A stretch of DNA of 32,705 bases from Methanobacteriota archaeon (GTDB lineage: Archaea; Thermoplasmatota; Thermoplasmata; RBG-16-68-12), in the NCBI GenBank assembly GCA_005878955.1, contig VBMI01000052.1, positions 1-32,705 of the forward strand, read 5' to 3'. The notes under the pieces are model-generated. The model saw only the letters and a list, made by a program, of their open reading frames with translations, made no database searches and was not told the origin of the DNA. Below are positions 905-7,071 of this stretch, piece by piece. How positions within the stretch are numbered: the stretch's first letter is position 1; the number at the start of each line of letters is the position of its first letter. The translations under genes and the position numbers were made by a program.

Positions 905-1507
905 ATGGGGAAGGCGTGGGTGAAGGCCCGGAGGCGGGACCCGTACTACCGCGCTGCGAAGGCGCAAGGCCTCCGAAGCCGCGCGGTGTTCAAGCTCGTC
1001 CAGATCCAGGAGCGGTTCGGCCTGATCTATGCCGGAGACACGATCCTCGACCTCGGGGCGGCCCCCGGAGGGTGGTCCCGCGCCGCCGCGGAGCTCGTCG
1101 GGCCGCGCGGCCGGGTGGTCGCCGTGGACCGCGTCCGGCTCGCCCCGATGGACGGAGTCACGTTCGTCCATGGAGACTTCACCGACGCGGACACGCAGGC
1201 CGCAATCTTCGAGGCGCTCCGGACGCCCGCTGACGTCGTGATCTGCGACGCCGCCCCGAAGCTCAGCGGGCACCGCTCCCTGGACGTGGCCCGCACCCTC
1301 GACCTCGCCCGGGCGGCCCTCGGGCTCGCCCGCAGGGCCCTGCGCCCCGGGGGCCGGTTCGTCACGAAGGTGTTCCAAGGTGACGGATACCGCACGTTCC
1401 TGTCCGAGGTGCGGGAGGACTTCGACGCCGTGAAGGGCTACGTGCCGCCCGCGACCTCGAAGGGTTCCGCGGAGACGTACGTCGTGGGGCTCGACCGGAC
1501 GGCCTAG
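905..1507 (+). CDS. rlmE: 23S rRNA (uridine-2'-O-)-methyltransferase, FtsJ/RrmJ family
   Basis: The 200-aa product is an almost complete match to the pattern of the FtsJ/RrmJ family, which methylates a ribose 2'-OH in 23S rRNA using S-adenosylmethionine. The AdoMet-binding motif ILDLGAAPGGWS lies at about residues 47-58. The K-D-K-E catalytic tetrad can be placed at K30 (AVFKL), D115 (ICDAAP), K155 (VTKVF) and E190 (SAETYVV). The length is normal for archaeal members, which often consist of the catalytic domain alone. ATG 905 suits the TATA box at 870-880 and the family's usual N-terminus (K...RRRDPYYRAAK). The gene ends convergently against the TPR gene with a 4-nt overlap at 1504-1507. The palindrome pair upstream may control it. 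Confidence 0.93.
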   Translation: MGKAWVKARRRDPYYRAAKAQGLRSRAVFKLVQIQERFGLIYAGDTILDLGAAPGGWSRAAAELVGPRGRVVAVDRVRLAPMDGVTFVHGDFTDADTQAAIFEALRTPADVVICDAAPKLSGHRSLDVARTLDLARAALGLARRALRPGGRFVTKVFQGDGYRTFLSEVREDFDAVKGYVPPATSKGSAETYVVGLDRTA

Positions 1508-2685
1508 GCCCCGAGGGCCCGCGCCCGCGCCAGGCACCGCTCGGCCTCGGCCCGGTCCCCGAGCCGCGCGAGCACCTCGCCGCGGTTCAGCCACGCGGCG
1601 ACGTACCGCGGCTTCAGCGCAACGGCCCGGTCGTGGCACGTCTTCGCGTCCTCGTACCGTCCCATCTTCGCGAGCGCCGCGCCCTTGTTGTTCCACGCGA
1701 TCGCGTACTTCGGTCGGAGCCCGATCGCCTTGTCGAAGCACTCGATCGCGCGCTCGAGGCGGCCCGCCCGGAAGAGGATGTCCCCCTTGTTGCACCAGGC
1801 GATCTCGTTCTTCGCGTTCAGCTTGAGCGCGGCGTTGTGGCACCGCATCGCCTCGTCGAGGCGCCCGAGCCGCTTGTACGCGACGCCCTTCGACGTCCAC
1901 GCCGTGGCGGGCCGCGAGCCCATGCGGATCGCGCGGTCGTACATCCCGATCGCCTCGTCGTACCGGCCCTCCTTGACGAGCCGGTCGCCCGTCGCGATCG
2001 CGGACGTGCTCGTGCGGAAGAGGCCGAGGCCGGCGCCGAACCCGCCCGCCGCGATGGCGAGGAACAGGACGATCGCGATCGGGTTGCCGGTGATCGCGTT
2101 CCACGACCACATCCCGAAGAGGAAGAAGATGAGGACGAGGGCGGCCGTCGTGCCCCCCACGATGAGATCGATGAGACGCCCGCTGAGCGCGCCCACCTTC
2201 GACGTCTCCGTCTCCGAGACGGCCACCGCGGGCGCCTCGGGCTCCGCGAGTTCCTCGGGCGCGACGGTCCCCGGCTCCTCCGCGGGGGCCTCCACGGGGG
2301 CGCCGAACTTCGTGCCGCACGAGGGACACGCGGCGGCGTCCGCCTCGACCTCCGCCCCGCACACGGGGCACTCGAACACCTCGACCGTCTCGGCCTCCGG
2401 GGCCGCGGGCGGTCCGGCGGTCTCCGCCTCCGCGGCGGACGTCTCGACGAGCAGGGAGTCGAGGAGCTCGTCCACGATCTCCTTGTCCAGGTCGAGGGAC
2501 TCCTCGCCCCCCTTGTCCGCGCCCTCGTCCGTCGCGGGGGCCTGGCTCAGCTCCTCCAGGAGCCGGTCCATCTCCCCGCCCCTCCCGCCGCCCTTGAGCT
2601 TGACCCCGCACTGCTGGCAGTCCGTCGCCGTCGCGGGGTTCGTGGCCCCGCACACCTCGCAAACGATCTCCGGGGCCGTGCCCAT
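1504..2685 (-). CDS. membrane protein with two zinc ribbons and C-terminal TPR repeats
   Basis: The 393-aa product has four parts. A short zinc ribbon comes first (C9-x2-C12, C23-x2-C26), then an acidic linker and a second ribbon (CPVCG...CPSCG) near residues 105-125. About residues 170-220 form two membrane segments (ALVLIFFLFGMW and IAIVLFLAIAAGGFGAGLGLF). About five TPR units follow to the C-terminus (for example GDILFRAGRLERAIECFDKAI). TPRs bind peptides or partner proteins and the ribbons probably bind zinc; the cellular role is unknown. The track ORF begins at 3030, but ATG 2685 is preferred because CGATATAAGG lies about 35 bp upstream and the ribbon then starts the protein. It is divergent from the coiled-coil operon at 2825, whose second gene also carries zinc ribbons. 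Confidence 0.85.
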   Translation of the reverse strand: MGTAPEIVCEVCGATNPATATDCQQCGVKLKGGGRGGEMDRLLEELSQAPATDEGADKGGEESLDLDKEIVDELLDSLLVETSAAEAETAGPPAAPEAETVEVFECPVCGAEVEADAAACPSCGTKFGAPVEAPAEEPGTVAPEELAEPEAPAVAVSETETSKVGALSGRLIDLIVGGTTAALVLIFFLFGMWSWNAITGNPIAIVLFLAIAAGGFGAGLGLFRTSTSAIATGDRLVKEGRYDEAIGMYDRAIRMGSRPATAWTSKGVAYKRLGRLDEAMRCHNAALKLNAKNEIAWCNKGDILFRAGRLERAIECFDKAIGLRPKYAIAWNNKGAALAKMGRYEDAKTCHDRAVALKPRYVAAWLNRGEVLARLGDRAEAERCLARARALGA

Positions 2686-2786: not shown

Positions 2787-2796
2787 GATTAAATAG
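2787..2796 (+). promoter_or_regulatory. TATA box of the coiled-coil operon
   Basis: GATTAAATAG is centred about 33 bp upstream of ATG 2825. The two divergent promoters sit in a 139-bp gap. Confidence 0.6.
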
Positions 2797-2824: not shown

Positions 2825-5491
2825 ATGGCGGGGAGGGGACCTAGGCTCAGCGCTGTCGGCCTCAGCGGCGTCCTCGGCATCGCCCTCGCGTTCATCGTGA
2901 CGATGTCCCTGCCGTTCCTCGGCCTCCCCGTGTTCCTGATCTCCGCGATCGTGATCGGCGGCGCGACCGCGGGCGTGCAGCACCGGCTCCACGTCCAGCT
3001 CGTGACGCACAACGACATCGACGCGTTCACGAAGCGGGAGGAGCTCGAGGCGCTGTGCCGAATCTACGGCCTCCTGCCCACCGGCGACATGGAGACCGTC
3101 CGGGCGCGCCTCCACGACTTCGTGGACTGGAAGGGGGCGCCCGGGGAGCGGGTGTACGTGTCCCCGCGCGTGCTGTTCCCGTCCCTCAGCCCGCCGAAGG
3201 TCAAGCCCGTCCGGATCCCGACCCCCGCGGAGGTCGCGAAGCTCTCCCGGCGGGAGGACCTGAGGAAGATCGCGCGGGCCCTCCACGTCTCCCCCGCGGG
3301 GACCGTCGAGGAGATCCGCTCGCACGTGCAGGCGGCGGTCGTCGAGCGGATGAAGCGCCGGCTCGCCCCCGACCCGTCCGCGGAGAAGCGGACCTTCGTG
3401 CCGCGGGTCGCCCGGATCCCCGCGGACTCGATGAACGACCCCGGGGCGCTCCGCGCAGAACTCCTGCGGGTGATGAAGGAGATGGGGGATGTCGAGGTCC
3501 AGCTGAATGCACGCGTGCGGGACCTGGAGGCGCGCCTCGAGGCCGCGTCCCGCGAGCGGGCGGCGCTCAAGTCCCGCCACGAGGCCGTCGAGGCGAAGGC
3601 CGAGGAGGTCGAACGGCGGGAGCGGGAGACCTCCTCGCTGAGCGAGTCCCTTTCGAAAAAGGAATCGGAGCTCACGAAGTATGAGGAAGAGGTGAAGGCC
3701 TCCGCGGTCCTGCTGACGCGGGAGACGGGCCGCGTGACGCAGGAGCTCGACGAGACGCGCTCGAAAGGGCGGAGCCTCGCGACCAAGGAGGAGGAGATCG
3801 CCCGGCGGGAGGAGGCGATCGCCCGCGCCCGCCGGGACGTCGAGGAGCTCCAGGAGGCCGCGGTCCAGGGGAAGGGGCAGCTCCTCGAGATCCAGCTCGC
3901 CCAGGCCCGTGTCCAGGAGGAGGCCCTCAAGGCCTCGAAGGCCTCGCTCGACGGGAAGCGGGAGGTCCTCGTCCGGGAGCGGGACGGCCTCGCGGCCGAG
4001 CGGGACTCCCTCGCGCGGGAGCGCCAGGAGATGCTTGCGGAGATGAAGGCGTTCGAGGCCCGGCAGGCCGAGGCGGCCGCGCGGGAGGCGAGCCTCACGA
4101 AGATGGTCGCGGACCTCCAGGCCCGCGCCGCGCAGGCGCAGGAGGCCTCGGACCGGATGCGCTCCTTGGAGTCCCGCCTGATGCGGTCCGAGGAGAAGCT
4201 CGCGGAGTCGGAGCGGATCCTCGCGACCCGGGAGGAGCTCGCGGAGCAGGAGCGGTCCCTCCGGCAGCGGGAGGAGGAGGTCGAGGCCGCGACCGCCGCG
4301 GGGCCGTCGCTGCAGGCGGAGGTCGGCGAGCGGCTGGAGGCCGTCCGTGACCGCGAGGAGGCGATCCGCCAGCGGGAGGTCGCCCTCGCCACGGACCGGG
4401 AGGCGCTCGCAATCGCGCAGGAGCGGTCCGCGCGGACCCTGGAGGAGATCGAGGAGGAGCGCGACGGGCTCGCGAACATGAGGCGGGACTTCGAGGTCCG
4501 GGAGGCCACCCTGCAGGCCGCGATTGCACGCATCGACGCGGGCACGGACGACGTCGAGCGGGTCTCCGACGGCGTGCGGGTGCGGGAGGCGGAGGTGCAG
4601 GCCCTCAGCGAACAGATGCAGGCCGCCCTCGACGGGCTGAACGCGAAGCGGGCGGAGATCGAGGAGGCCCAGCGGAAGCTGCAGGACCGGGAGTACGAGG
4701 TCGAGTCCCGCCGGGCGTCCCTCCGCGGCCAGGAGCGGGAGCTCGCGCAGCAGCGCGGACTCCTCGAGACGGGGATGCGGGAACTCGCCGCGCGCGAAGG
4801 GAAGCTCGACGCCAAGTTGCGGGAGCAGGCGGAGGCGGAGGAGCGACGCCGCTCCGAGATGGCCGCCCTCCGGTCCGAGATCGAGAAGGCCCGGTCCGAT
4901 GTCGCCCTTCGGGAGCGGTCCCTCCGTCAGAGGGAGGTGGAGGTCGGGCAGCGCGTGGCGACGGTGGACCGCATCCGCGCGAGCGTCGAGGACAAGCTCA
5001 CCCTGGAGAGCGCGAAACAGCGGGACGACCTGTTCCGCCTGAAGGAGGACCTCGAGCGGCGCGAGAAGGCCCTCGCCGAGCGGCAGGCCAGCGTGGCGGT
5101 GCCGCACGCAACGCCGGCGGCGACCGGGACCCTCGGGGCGGAGATCGAACAGGCGCGCCAGGAATTCGAGGCGGAGTTCGCCCGGCGCCTCCAGGCGGTG
5201 GAGGAGCGGGAGGCCCGGATCGCGGCCACGGAGGGCGACGCGTCGCGGGCCGGGCAGGACCTCGCGGACCGGTTCGCCAAGGTCGCCGCGGAGGAGCAGC
5301 GGCTCGCGGAGGTGGAGTCCCGCCTCCAGCGGTACCGCGACGAAATCCACAACGCCCGCCAGGCCCTGATGACGGTCGACGAGATGCTCACGAAGATGCC
5401 GTACGAGGTGATCGAGAACTTCACCCGGACGGAGAACTTCGATGTGTACGAGAAGGCGTTCAAGGCGGTCGTGAAGGGGTACAAGGAATGA
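2825..5491 (+). CDS. membrane-anchored protein with two SAP-like segments and a long coiled coil, 888 aa
   Basis: Residues about 11-55 form two hydrophobic helices (GVLGIALAFIVTMSLPFLGL and VFLISAIVIGGATAG), a membrane hairpin that would leave both ends in the cytoplasm. Two SAP-like helix-extended-loop-helix segments follow: KREELEALCRIYGLLPTG at 70-87 and SRREDLRKIARALHVSPAG at 141-159. SAP domains usually bind DNA, though some bind other ligands. From about 205 to 850 the protein is a continuous heptad-rich coiled coil full of E/R/Q/A. The last 40 residues are a conserved-looking non-coiled tail (MLTKMPYEVIENF...YEKAFKAVVKGYKE). There is no Walker motif, so it is not SMC or Rad50. Its stop overlaps the next ATG, implying coupled translation. 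A role in tethering DNA or ordering the envelope is inference. Confidence 0.85.
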   Translation: MAGRGPRLSAVGLSGVLGIALAFIVTMSLPFLGLPVFLISAIVIGGATAGVQHRLHVQLVTHNDIDAFTKREELEALCRIYGLLPTGDMETVRARLHDFVDWKGAPGERVYVSPRVLFPSLSPPKVKPVRIPTPAEVAKLSRREDLRKIARALHVSPAGTVEEIRSHVQAAVVERMKRRLAPDPSAEKRTFVPRVARIPADSMNDPGALRAELLRVMKEMGDVEVQLNARVRDLEARLEAASRERAALKSRHEAVEAKAEEVERRERETSSLSESLSKKESELTKYEEEVKASAVLLTRETGRVTQELDETRSKGRSLATKEEEIARREEAIARARRDVEELQEAAVQGKGQLLEIQLAQARVQEEALKASKASLDGKREVLVRERDGLAAERDSLARERQEMLAEMKAFEARQAEAAAREASLTKMVADLQARAAQAQEASDRMRSLESRLMRSEEKLAESERILATREELAEQERSLRQREEEVEAATAAGPSLQAEVGERLEAVRDREEAIRQREVALATDREALAIAQERSARTLEEIEEERDGLANMRRDFEVREATLQAAIARIDAGTDDVERVSDGVRVREAEVQALSEQMQAALDGLNAKRAEIEEAQRKLQDREYEVESRRASLRGQERELAQQRGLLETGMRELAAREGKLDAKLREQAEAEERRRSEMAALRSEIEKARSDVALRERSLRQREVEVGQRVATVDRIRASVEDKLTLESAKQRDDLFRLKEDLERREKALAERQASVAVPHATPAATGTLGAEIEQARQEFEAEFARRLQAVEEREARIAATEGDASRAGQDLADRFAKVAAEEQRLAEVESRLQRYRDEIHNARQALMTVDEMLTKMPYEVIENFTRTENFDVYEKAFKAVVKGYKE

Positions 5492-7071
5492 GCCCCCTCT
5501 TCCGGAGCAAGGCCCGGGAGGAGGCGGAGGGCGCGCTCGTGTCGGCGGACGACACCCTCGCGATCCTCGAGTCCGGGCGCGCGGACCTCGGACCCGCCCG
5601 CCGCATGCGAGAGCGCGCGGCGTCCCTCCTGGCGCGGGGGGCGTACCGGGAGGCCGCGCAGGCCGCCCGGAAGGCGGAGGAGACCGCGAGGCTCCTGGAC
5701 CGGCTGCACACCGCCGCCTCGCAGGGGATCGTCCGTCTGCGGGCCGAGCGGGGTCGCATGGCGAAGCTCGGCATGAGCGTCGAGGACGTGGACGCGCTCG
5801 TCGCCTCTGCGGAGGCCTGGATGTCCAAGACGGTCGAGCGGGACGGCGACCCGGCGTTCCCCGCCTATGCGAAGTCGGCGGAGCTCGCCCTCCGGGGGCT
5901 GAAGCTCGCATCCGGGCGGATCCCCAGGTACAAGGAGGCCTCGGCGGCGGTGTACGAGTCCGTGCAGGCGCTCCGCAAGATGGTCGAGGCGAACCGCTTC
6001 GTCGACCGGGAGGCGTTCCAGTTCTTCGTGCTCAAGCCCGCGAACGACGTCCTCGTGGAGGCGAAGGGGAAGCTCTCGGCGAACGAGTACGGAGAGGCGA
6101 AGGACCTCGCCCGCTGGACCATCGCGGCGGCGAAGCAGATCGAGGACACGTACGGCCGCGTGACCGCCGCGTTCACGCGGGTCGACGAGGGGCTGCGGGC
6201 CCTCCGGTCGGAGGGCGGCCTCGCGAGGGACGTGGAGAACCTCCTTGCGCTCTGTCGCACGGCCCTCGAACGGGGGAAGTTCGACGAGGCCGCGGACGTC
6301 GCGGAACGGGCCGGGCGGCGCCTCGAGGACGTGCGGGAGGCGTACCGGTCCCTCGTCCTGCGGCGCCGGAACGCGGAGGACGCGATCGCGGAGGCCGAGC
6401 GGTGGGGGTTCGACGCGCAGGAGCCCCGCGCGGTCCTGAAGGACGCGGTGCAGCTCATGGAGGGCGGCCGGTGCGACGACGCGGGGCCCCGGATGGACGA
6501 GACGCGACGGGCCGCGCAGGGGCTGCGGGAGACGCACAAGGCGACCGCCGCGCGGATCCAGGCGATGCGCACGAGCGTGGCCGCGATGCGGGCCACGGAC
6601 CGGGTGGCGGCCGGGGAGGCGGAGGGGCTGATTGCGAAGGCGGAGGCGCTGCTCGAGGAGGGTCGGTACCGCGCGTGCGACGAGAACCTGCAGATCGCTT
6701 CCCTTCTCCTAGTGGATTTGGAGGCCGCGGGCCACCCAGCCGCGGACCCCGGGCGGGGCTTCGCATCCCTCCTCCAGGCCGCGAGGGCGGTGCAACCGAC
6801 GTGCCCGACGTGCGGCGGGCCCCTCTCGAACGACGGGACGTGCCTCACGTGCTCGACCCTCCCCGAACCCGAGAACGTCCCGACGGTGAGCCCGATCGCC
6901 CAGGCGGTCGAGGGAGCGCGGAAGGTCCTCGCGGAAATCGGCCGGGAGGACCGGGCCCTCATGGAGGCCGTGGCCGCGAGCGTCGAGGCCTGCGCGATGT
7001 GCGGCGGGCCCCTCGCCGGCGAGGACGTCCTCTGCGGGAAGTGCCAGGCGACCGTGAGGGGCCGCGGGTGA
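5488..7071 (+). CDS. alpha-helical protein with two C-terminal zinc ribbons, 527 aa
   Basis: The ATG overlaps the stop of the preceding coiled-coil gene (ATGA), so the two are probably translated together and act together. Residues 1-430 are almost wholly helical, with TPR-like pairs such as LLARGAYREAAQAARKAEE and LLEEGRYRACDENLQIAS, and no membrane segment. Two zinc ribbons close the protein: CPTCGGPLSNDGTCLTC near 438-454 and CAMCGGPLAGEDVLCGKC near 502-519. I recognise no named family. A soluble partner that docks on the membrane-bound coiled coil is a reasonable inference. The 3' end lies 4 bp from the convergent radical SAM gene. Confidence 0.8.
   Translation: MSPLFRSKAREEAEGALVSADDTLAILESGRADLGPARRMRERAASLLARGAYREAAQAARKAEETARLLDRLHTAASQGIVRLRAERGRMAKLGMSVEDVDALVASAEAWMSKTVERDGDPAFPAYAKSAELALRGLKLASGRIPRYKEASAAVYESVQALRKMVEANRFVDREAFQFFVLKPANDVLVEAKGKLSANEYGEAKDLARWTIAAAKQIEDTYGRVTAAFTRVDEGLRALRSEGGLARDVENLLALCRTALERGKFDEAADVAERAGRRLEDVREAYRSLVLRRRNAEDAIAEAERWGFDAQEPRAVLKDAVQLMEGGRCDDAGPRMDETRRAAQGLRETHKATAARIQAMRTSVAAMRATDRVAAGEAEGLIAKAEALLEEGRYRACDENLQIASLLLVDLEAAGHPAADPGRGFASLLQAARAVQPTCPTCGGPLSNDGTCLTCSTLPEPENVPTVSPIAQAVEGARKVLAEIGREDRALMEAVAASVEACAMCGGPLAGEDVLCGKCQATVRGRG

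Follow-up and report, generated by a model that had tools for sequence, protein, structure and literature searches.

A two-gene archaeal unit encoding a predicted membrane-hairpin, SAP-domain and coiled-coil protein and a helical-repeat partner with zinc ribbons

Two overlapping genes, named here A and B, constitute a conserved two-gene unit built from known domains plus one tail module that is not annotated, and a function can be proposed for it. They were found in a window of 32,705 nt, the whole stretch of DNA analyzed, which belongs to an archaeal MAG of 2.15 Mb in 180 contigs, probably of Candidatus Thermoplasmatota as judged by its gene content and by named relatives. The reading that we favor, to which a probability of roughly 40% can be given, is that A–B would be a lineage-specific scaffold in which A holds nucleic acid at the membrane, the tail of its rod docks a partner, and B is a soluble adaptor.

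Gene A (2825..5491, plus strand) encodes 888 aa with a membrane hairpin, two SAP domains, a coiled coil and a conserved tail, and it has orthologs of 62–69% identity in both other genomes of its genus (g1). Gene B (5488..7071, plus strand) encodes 527 aa with a helical-repeat rod followed by two zinc ribbons near the C-terminus; it is 64% identical in one sister species (G001), while in the other (G002) the copy is divided over two contig ends. The start codon of B lies inside the stop codon of A, in a 4-nt ATGA overlap that is identical in both sister species (3/3 genomes of the genus); the open reading frames, their sizes and the coupled start given by the initial annotation were all borne out. 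Between species, both proteins align over their full length with 62–69% identity, and the length of A is constant (881–888 aa in the three species). The substitutions per codon position 1/2/3 were 0.24/0.21/0.42 for A against one sister species and 0.21/0.15/0.31 against the other, and 0.23/0.23/0.41 for B between species. This third-position excess indicates that A and B are real genes under protein-level selection.

Concerning the surroundings of the two genes, a TATA-box-like element, TTAAATA (2789..2795, plus strand), was read directly about 30 nt upstream of the start codon of A; the same element occurs at about the same distance before A in G002, and TTATATA in G001. It would be the promoter of A, giving a transcript with a short leader or none. 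The divergent neighbor gene (1504..2685, minus strand) encodes zinc ribbons, one or more membrane segments and TPR repeats (TPR_1, 8e-35; Zn_Ribbon_1, 2e-8), with full-length matches in g1 and matches of 50–61% identity in most genomes of the sister genus (g2). Its order next to A is conserved, and it may or may not be linked functionally to A–B. Further upstream, four copies of the palindrome TGGTAAACTTGTTTACCA are found between window positions 182 and 838, two perfect (761–778 and 821–838) and two near-copies (185–202 and 254–271). The perfect 18-mer, with any two middle bases allowed, had no further occurrence anywhere in the assembly, and its 17-base core occurs once in G002. The array looks like a locus-specific operator or an origin-type array.

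Protein A begins with a two-helix membrane hairpin (2852..2989, plus strand; residues 10–28 and 35–55), recognized by hydropathy, by the helices of the AlphaFold model and by arginine residues just outside both helices. The 19-residue hydropathy windows exceed 1.6 from residue 6 to about residue 48, and the hairpin is present in all A orthologs, which agrees with the two-helix anchor proposed at the outset. Since the flanks bear arginine and the loop is uncharged, the positive-inside rule predicts that the N- and C-terminal sides of the hairpin are probably both cytoplasmic.

The hairpin is followed by SAP domain 1 (3008..3133, plus strand; residues 62–103) and SAP domain 2 (3224..3364, plus strand; residues 134–180). 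The Pfam profile SAP_new25 (PF18953) matched two stretches of the N-terminal fragment of A with an E-value of 3.9e-5, the first domain among them. The G002 ortholog scored 33.5 bits, above the cut-off of 26.3, and the window protein 23.6, below it; PF02037 also matched the G002 ortholog, twice. The isolated SAP2 segment gave weak SAP_new25 hits (0.016–0.16), and hhalign related the SAP1 and SAP2 families with 93% probability. In the AlphaFold model, whose mean pLDDT of 68.5 is moderate overall, both regions form helix-extension-helix units (helices 71–80/89–103 and 143–152/161–180) with pLDDT around 80–87, about 85 in SAP1. A Foldseek search gave no match below 0.001, and its list was dominated by solved SAP domains (DEK, 3′hExo, Hcc-1, FAN1 and others); that of 3′hExo superposed at 0.9 Å over 42 columns, the E-values of the SAP matches being above 0.3 for a tiny domain of about 40 residues. 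Taken together, the ortholog above the Pfam cut-off, hhalign, the model and Foldseek support the two SAP-like segments noticed initially and identify residues 62–103 and 134–180 as SAP domains. They are likely DNA-binding. Their charges differ: SAP1 is near-neutral (−2 to 0 in the genus), whereas SAP2 is basic in 3/3 species (+5 to +7 over 42 residues). SAP2 was seen only in the g1 orthologs and is absent from G024, a genome of the same order.

Other proteins carry related N-terminal segments. In G038 and G051, a protein of 223–234 aa has a hairpin, a SAP domain and a zinc ribbon without a coil (L053:5789-6493 and L054:3603-4274), its gene being flanked on one side by a nicotinate-nucleotide-pyrophosphorylase-like gene and on the other by a transporter-like gene. 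These stand-alone proteins show that the N-terminal module of A is a unit of its own. The SAP1 profile also picked out an L32e-like ribosomal protein that carries a SAP domain. In the genome of the window it further matched a protein of 669 aa (G000:C123; L136:1191-3200), which combines numerous zinc ribbons and a SAP-like segment with a membrane region at the C-terminus.

The long coiled coil of A (3440..5134, plus strand; residues 206–770) shows a heptad period of 3.5 above all 200 shuffles. After a break containing Pro and Gly, near residues 771–795, a shorter second helical stretch follows (5210..5359, plus strand; residues 796–845), with a periodicity that was not above all shuffles. The total of about 615 residues corresponds to about 90 nm if continuous (0.15 nm per residue), and coil identity among the species of the genus is 42–72%. 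Neither a Walker A motif nor LSGG was found, so the initial description of a coil of about 600 residues, of SMC length and without an ATPase, stands. A as a relative of SMC or Rad50 was considered and rejected: the matches reflect coil composition, with no ATPase motif.

At the end of the coil lies the tail module (5360..5488, plus strand; residues 846–888, 43 residues), with the pattern LD.LL..LP...I..F..S..F..YEK and the consensus LDELLGxLPxxxIxxFAKSxxFxLYEKVLxxY. The tail is 86% identical in both sister species; no other stretch of A except SAP1 is as well conserved. Such conservation points to a docking function, or to closure of the dimer, at the distal end of the coil. No credible match was obtained in Pfam, NCBIfam or the PDB. 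Its profile matched 144/390 genomes of the phylum and 16/22 of the family; a search for related loci gave four (Thermoplasmatota, unclassified archaea and Woesearchaeota, the last with one tail-bearing protein) and added little on distribution. Elsewhere the tail ends zinc-ribbon coiled-coil proteins, paired coil proteins, a KaiC + DUF7504 + coil protein of G058 and a similar coil protein of G047. As judged from these occurrences, it is an archaeal C-terminal module new to annotation, recurring on coiled-coil and KaiC-like proteins. The G058 protein (L055; G058:C64:193358-195976) has 872 aa with KaiC-like and DUF7504 regions, coil and tail, and a stand-alone KaiC-like ATPase is encoded upstream of it, a position that ties the tail to archaeal KaiC-type signaling. 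In the genome of the window (G000:C48; L135, L126), a 385-aa protein with zinc ribbon, coil and tail has as its downstream neighbor a coil protein of about 1800 aa whose sequence starts with MGLRQKAKKSL; this pair recurs across the phylum with varying neighbors.

Regarding protein B, its helical-repeat region (5509..6729, plus strand) consists of units of about 64 residues, each with a 15-residue helix, a turn and a helix of about 41 residues, as indicated by AlphaFold and by homology to a protein of about 1500 aa. The AlphaFold model is a rod with a mean pLDDT of 83, mostly above 90 in the helical core. Zinc ribbon 1 (CPTC...CLTC; 6802..6852, plus strand; residues 439–455) matches DZR/DZR_2 below cut-off and is absent from the six paralogs inspected; zinc ribbon 2 (CAMC...CGKC) occupies 6991..7044 (plus strand; residues 502–519). 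B had been described initially as helical with two terminal zinc ribbons, and the helices and two CxxC...CxxC ribbons are indeed there, but both ribbons are at the C-terminal end and not one per end. Ribbonless paralogs of about 430 residues are spread through the family. The genome of the window has two, and several of the paralogs adjoin ribosomal-protein, rpoD or prenyltransferase genes. On these comparisons, B is a diverged duplicate whose zinc ribbons were gained in g1 only. Assignment of B to the TPR or YfdX proteins was discarded, its scores being sub-threshold only. Foldseek against the PDB gave nothing significant for B, only long-helix rods (EzrA, E 0.71), and a profile search of the PDB with the B family gave nothing.

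The B family is homologous to the protein of about 1500 aa just mentioned (hhalign 99.5%, E 3.5e-23). With hmmsearch, the B family matched the 1500-aa proteins with E-values of 3e-42 to 9e-77, the best shuffled control reaching 1.2, and SMC and A were unmatched. The large protein consists of helical repeats and a C-terminal RING-like zinc domain, Prok-RING_1 being above cut-off in G039. In the genome of the window it is encoded after SMC (954 bits), ScpA and ScpB (G000:C18:8175-17939; L187), and the order smc-scpA-scpB followed by the 1500-aa gene was found in 10/10 order-level loci with flanking sequence, from three families (L187, L188–L194, L197, L201), ScpA and ScpB being named from sequence features and position and not by family search. 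In the class-level loci examined, the 1500-aa gene was not near SMC. The protein was detected in 57/61 class relatives at E ≤1e-10, although some of the weaker matches counted here may represent different members of its family. An in-frame TAG inside the ScpA gene of the same genome (L187:6309-6311 = G000:C18:12308-12310) may be a sequencing error, decay or read-through. No description of a 1500-aa protein of the SMC operon was found in the literature searched, and it is possibly an unrecognised condensin-associated subunit. B itself is not encoded with smc-scpA-scpB: in this genome B is on C125 and SMC on C18.

The expectation that A and B would keep together across relatives largely did not hold. 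They are paired in g1 only (3/3 genomes), and full-length A, with hairpin, SAP, coil and tail, was present in those three genomes and in G024, out of 37 genomes of the order searched. Outside g1, sequence searching recovered five A-like genes, of which G024 has one and the family f3 four; none of them is followed by B. In f3, a coil-tail protein of 529–532 aa is encoded at the same place, with a lysine-rich start replacing the hairpin and SAP part, and its gene is followed not by B but by an unrelated one of 73–76 aa. In g2 (L181–L183), which lacks the block, the zinc-ribbon TPR gene is directly beside a Lhr-type helicase gene, and A, B, a radical-SAM gene and a small helix-turn-helix gene are absent. 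The simplest history would be that the coil-tail gene is ancestral here and was lost with its neighbors in g2, and that B joined in g1. By this distribution, the A–B pairing is recent and lineage-specific, and not a general two-component system.

When compared with known systems, A comes nearest in design to the class II HeH/LEM membrane proteins of the eukaryotic inner nuclear membrane. These span the membrane with two helices, so that both termini face the chromatin, and have a SAP-like helix-extension-helix domain able to bind DNA (PMC4810098). Like Src1/Heh1, MAN1 and Lem2, A has a SAP-like domain and two membrane helices, but its SAP domains follow a tight hairpin, it adds a coil of about 600 residues, and HeH/LEM proteins belong to the eukaryotic nuclear envelope only. 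No sequence homology between them was found, and A gave no Pfam match to the MSC (MAN1/Src1) domain, so that A is not a member of HeH/LEM and the likeness is in design only. The coil has the length of that of SMC, with weak, coil-driven scores of 33–35 bits against cut-offs of 567–729 (34.9 against 300 for the archaea-specific SMC-related proteins, NF045487), but A lacks the ATPase head, Walker A and signature motif and has a hairpin and SAP domains instead. The zinc-ribbon coil-tail proteins (C48), of which no published description was found, share the tail on a coil, but they have no hairpin or SAP and carry ribbons at their own N-terminus. B has helical repeats and a C-terminal zinc module in common with the 1500-aa protein, which is three times longer, ends in a RING-like domain and not in ribbons, and is fixed in the SMC operon. 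EzrA is a long-helix rod like B but is itself membrane-anchored, with no homology to B shown. RNase Y has an N-terminal membrane anchor and then a long coil, as A does, but A is without KH or HD catalytic domains. Literature on the combination of SAP, membrane and coil in archaea gave nothing relevant, and, in agreement with the initial annotation, no described archaeal system of such make-up was found in the literature searched.

A membrane-chromosome scaffold had been proposed from the start. It is still the leading idea and has an independent line in its favor, B being homologous to a protein encoded directly after smc-scpA-scpB. The geometry is different, since the SAP domains come right after the hairpin: any bound nucleic acid would lie close to the membrane, and the coil cannot space membrane from DNA. 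In the scaffold as we favor it, A would sit in the cytoplasmic membrane by its hairpin, with both ends inside, and the ligand of the SAP domains would be a nucleic acid, in all likelihood the DNA of the chromosome, contacted mainly by the basic SAP2. The coil, probably a parallel dimer, would reach up to about 90 nm off the membrane, and the conserved tail at its end would dock a partner or close the dimer. Co-translation makes B the natural candidate partner of the tail. Made from the same message, B would be a soluble rod of long-helix repeats with two zinc ribbons that probably adapts A to the chromosome-organizing machinery or its DNA, a role proposed from the gene position of its large relative, right behind smc-scpA-scpB. 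The scaffold would thus act in the manner of the eukaryotic HeH/LEM proteins, by which chromatin is held at a membrane, without belonging to that family. We infer the topology, DNA as the ligand, dimerization, the contact between A and B and the SMC link of B itself. The lysine-rich start of the f3 protein in place of hairpin and SAP is compatible with nucleic-acid contact and so would support the scaffold. Against it, the charge of SAP1 is neutral to acidic, RNA is also a possible ligand of SAP domains, and DNA binding by A is a prediction; SAP2 alone is weakly detected and missing in G024, and the pairing is limited to one genus; the nearest B paralogs are beside ribosomal-protein/rpoD and prenyltransferase genes, not SMC; and the tail also occurs on KaiC-like signaling proteins.

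This last occurrence, with the similar coil protein of G047 and the zinc-ribbon coil proteins, favors another interpretation, namely an envelope or cytoskeletal/signaling scaffold in which the helices of the SAP folds would bind protein, the coil would act as a spacer, and signaling or structural partners, KaiC-like proteins for instance, would be recruited by the tail. The non-basic SAP1 and the presence of the spectrin-like division protein EzrA among the non-significant Foldseek matches of B point the same way, while the tandem SAP domains, one of them strongly basic in 3/3 species, and the tie of the B family to the SMC operon argue against it; we regard it as somewhat unlikely. Less probable, and doubtful on present evidence, is a stronger version of the favored scaffold, in which A–B would be a chromosome membrane anchor working with SMC-ScpAB: the SAP domains would keep DNA at the membrane, and B, as a short relative of an unrecognised fourth product of the smc-scpA-scpB operon, would bring condensin-type machinery via coil and tail, an independently evolved prokaryotic counterpart of HeH/LEM.

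The SAP domain of 3′hExo, a Foldseek match of A, reads an RNA loop (PMC12775136), which would suit a membrane-anchored RNA scaffold like RNase Y or membrane-bound RNase E, with SAP domains holding RNA or ribosomes and a coil gathering processing factors. The presence of an RlmE/FtsJ-type rRNA methyltransferase and the Lhr-type helicase in the conserved neighborhood, the reach of the SAP1 profile to the L32e-like protein and a weak likeness of the G024 coil to the N-terminal region of RNase Y (0.0024, below cut-off) are in line with this. On the other hand, A and B contain neither a nuclease nor a known RNA-binding domain, and their transcription unit is separate from both neighbors, which stay together without A–B in g2, so this reading seems quite improbable. 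About as improbable is that A and B share a transcript but have separate roles, with an overlap that merely reflects recent insertion of a duplicated B behind A, as the unrelated gene following A outside the genus and the two other B copies in the genome might suggest, against which stand an overlap kept in all three species at 62–69% protein identity and zinc ribbons of B gained in g1 only.

How the archaeal chromosome is held or positioned at the membrane is largely an open question, for which A–B would be a concrete candidate with testable parts. Besides, the locus defines an unannotated tail module and leads to a conserved neighbor of smc-scpA-scpB throughout an archaeal order.
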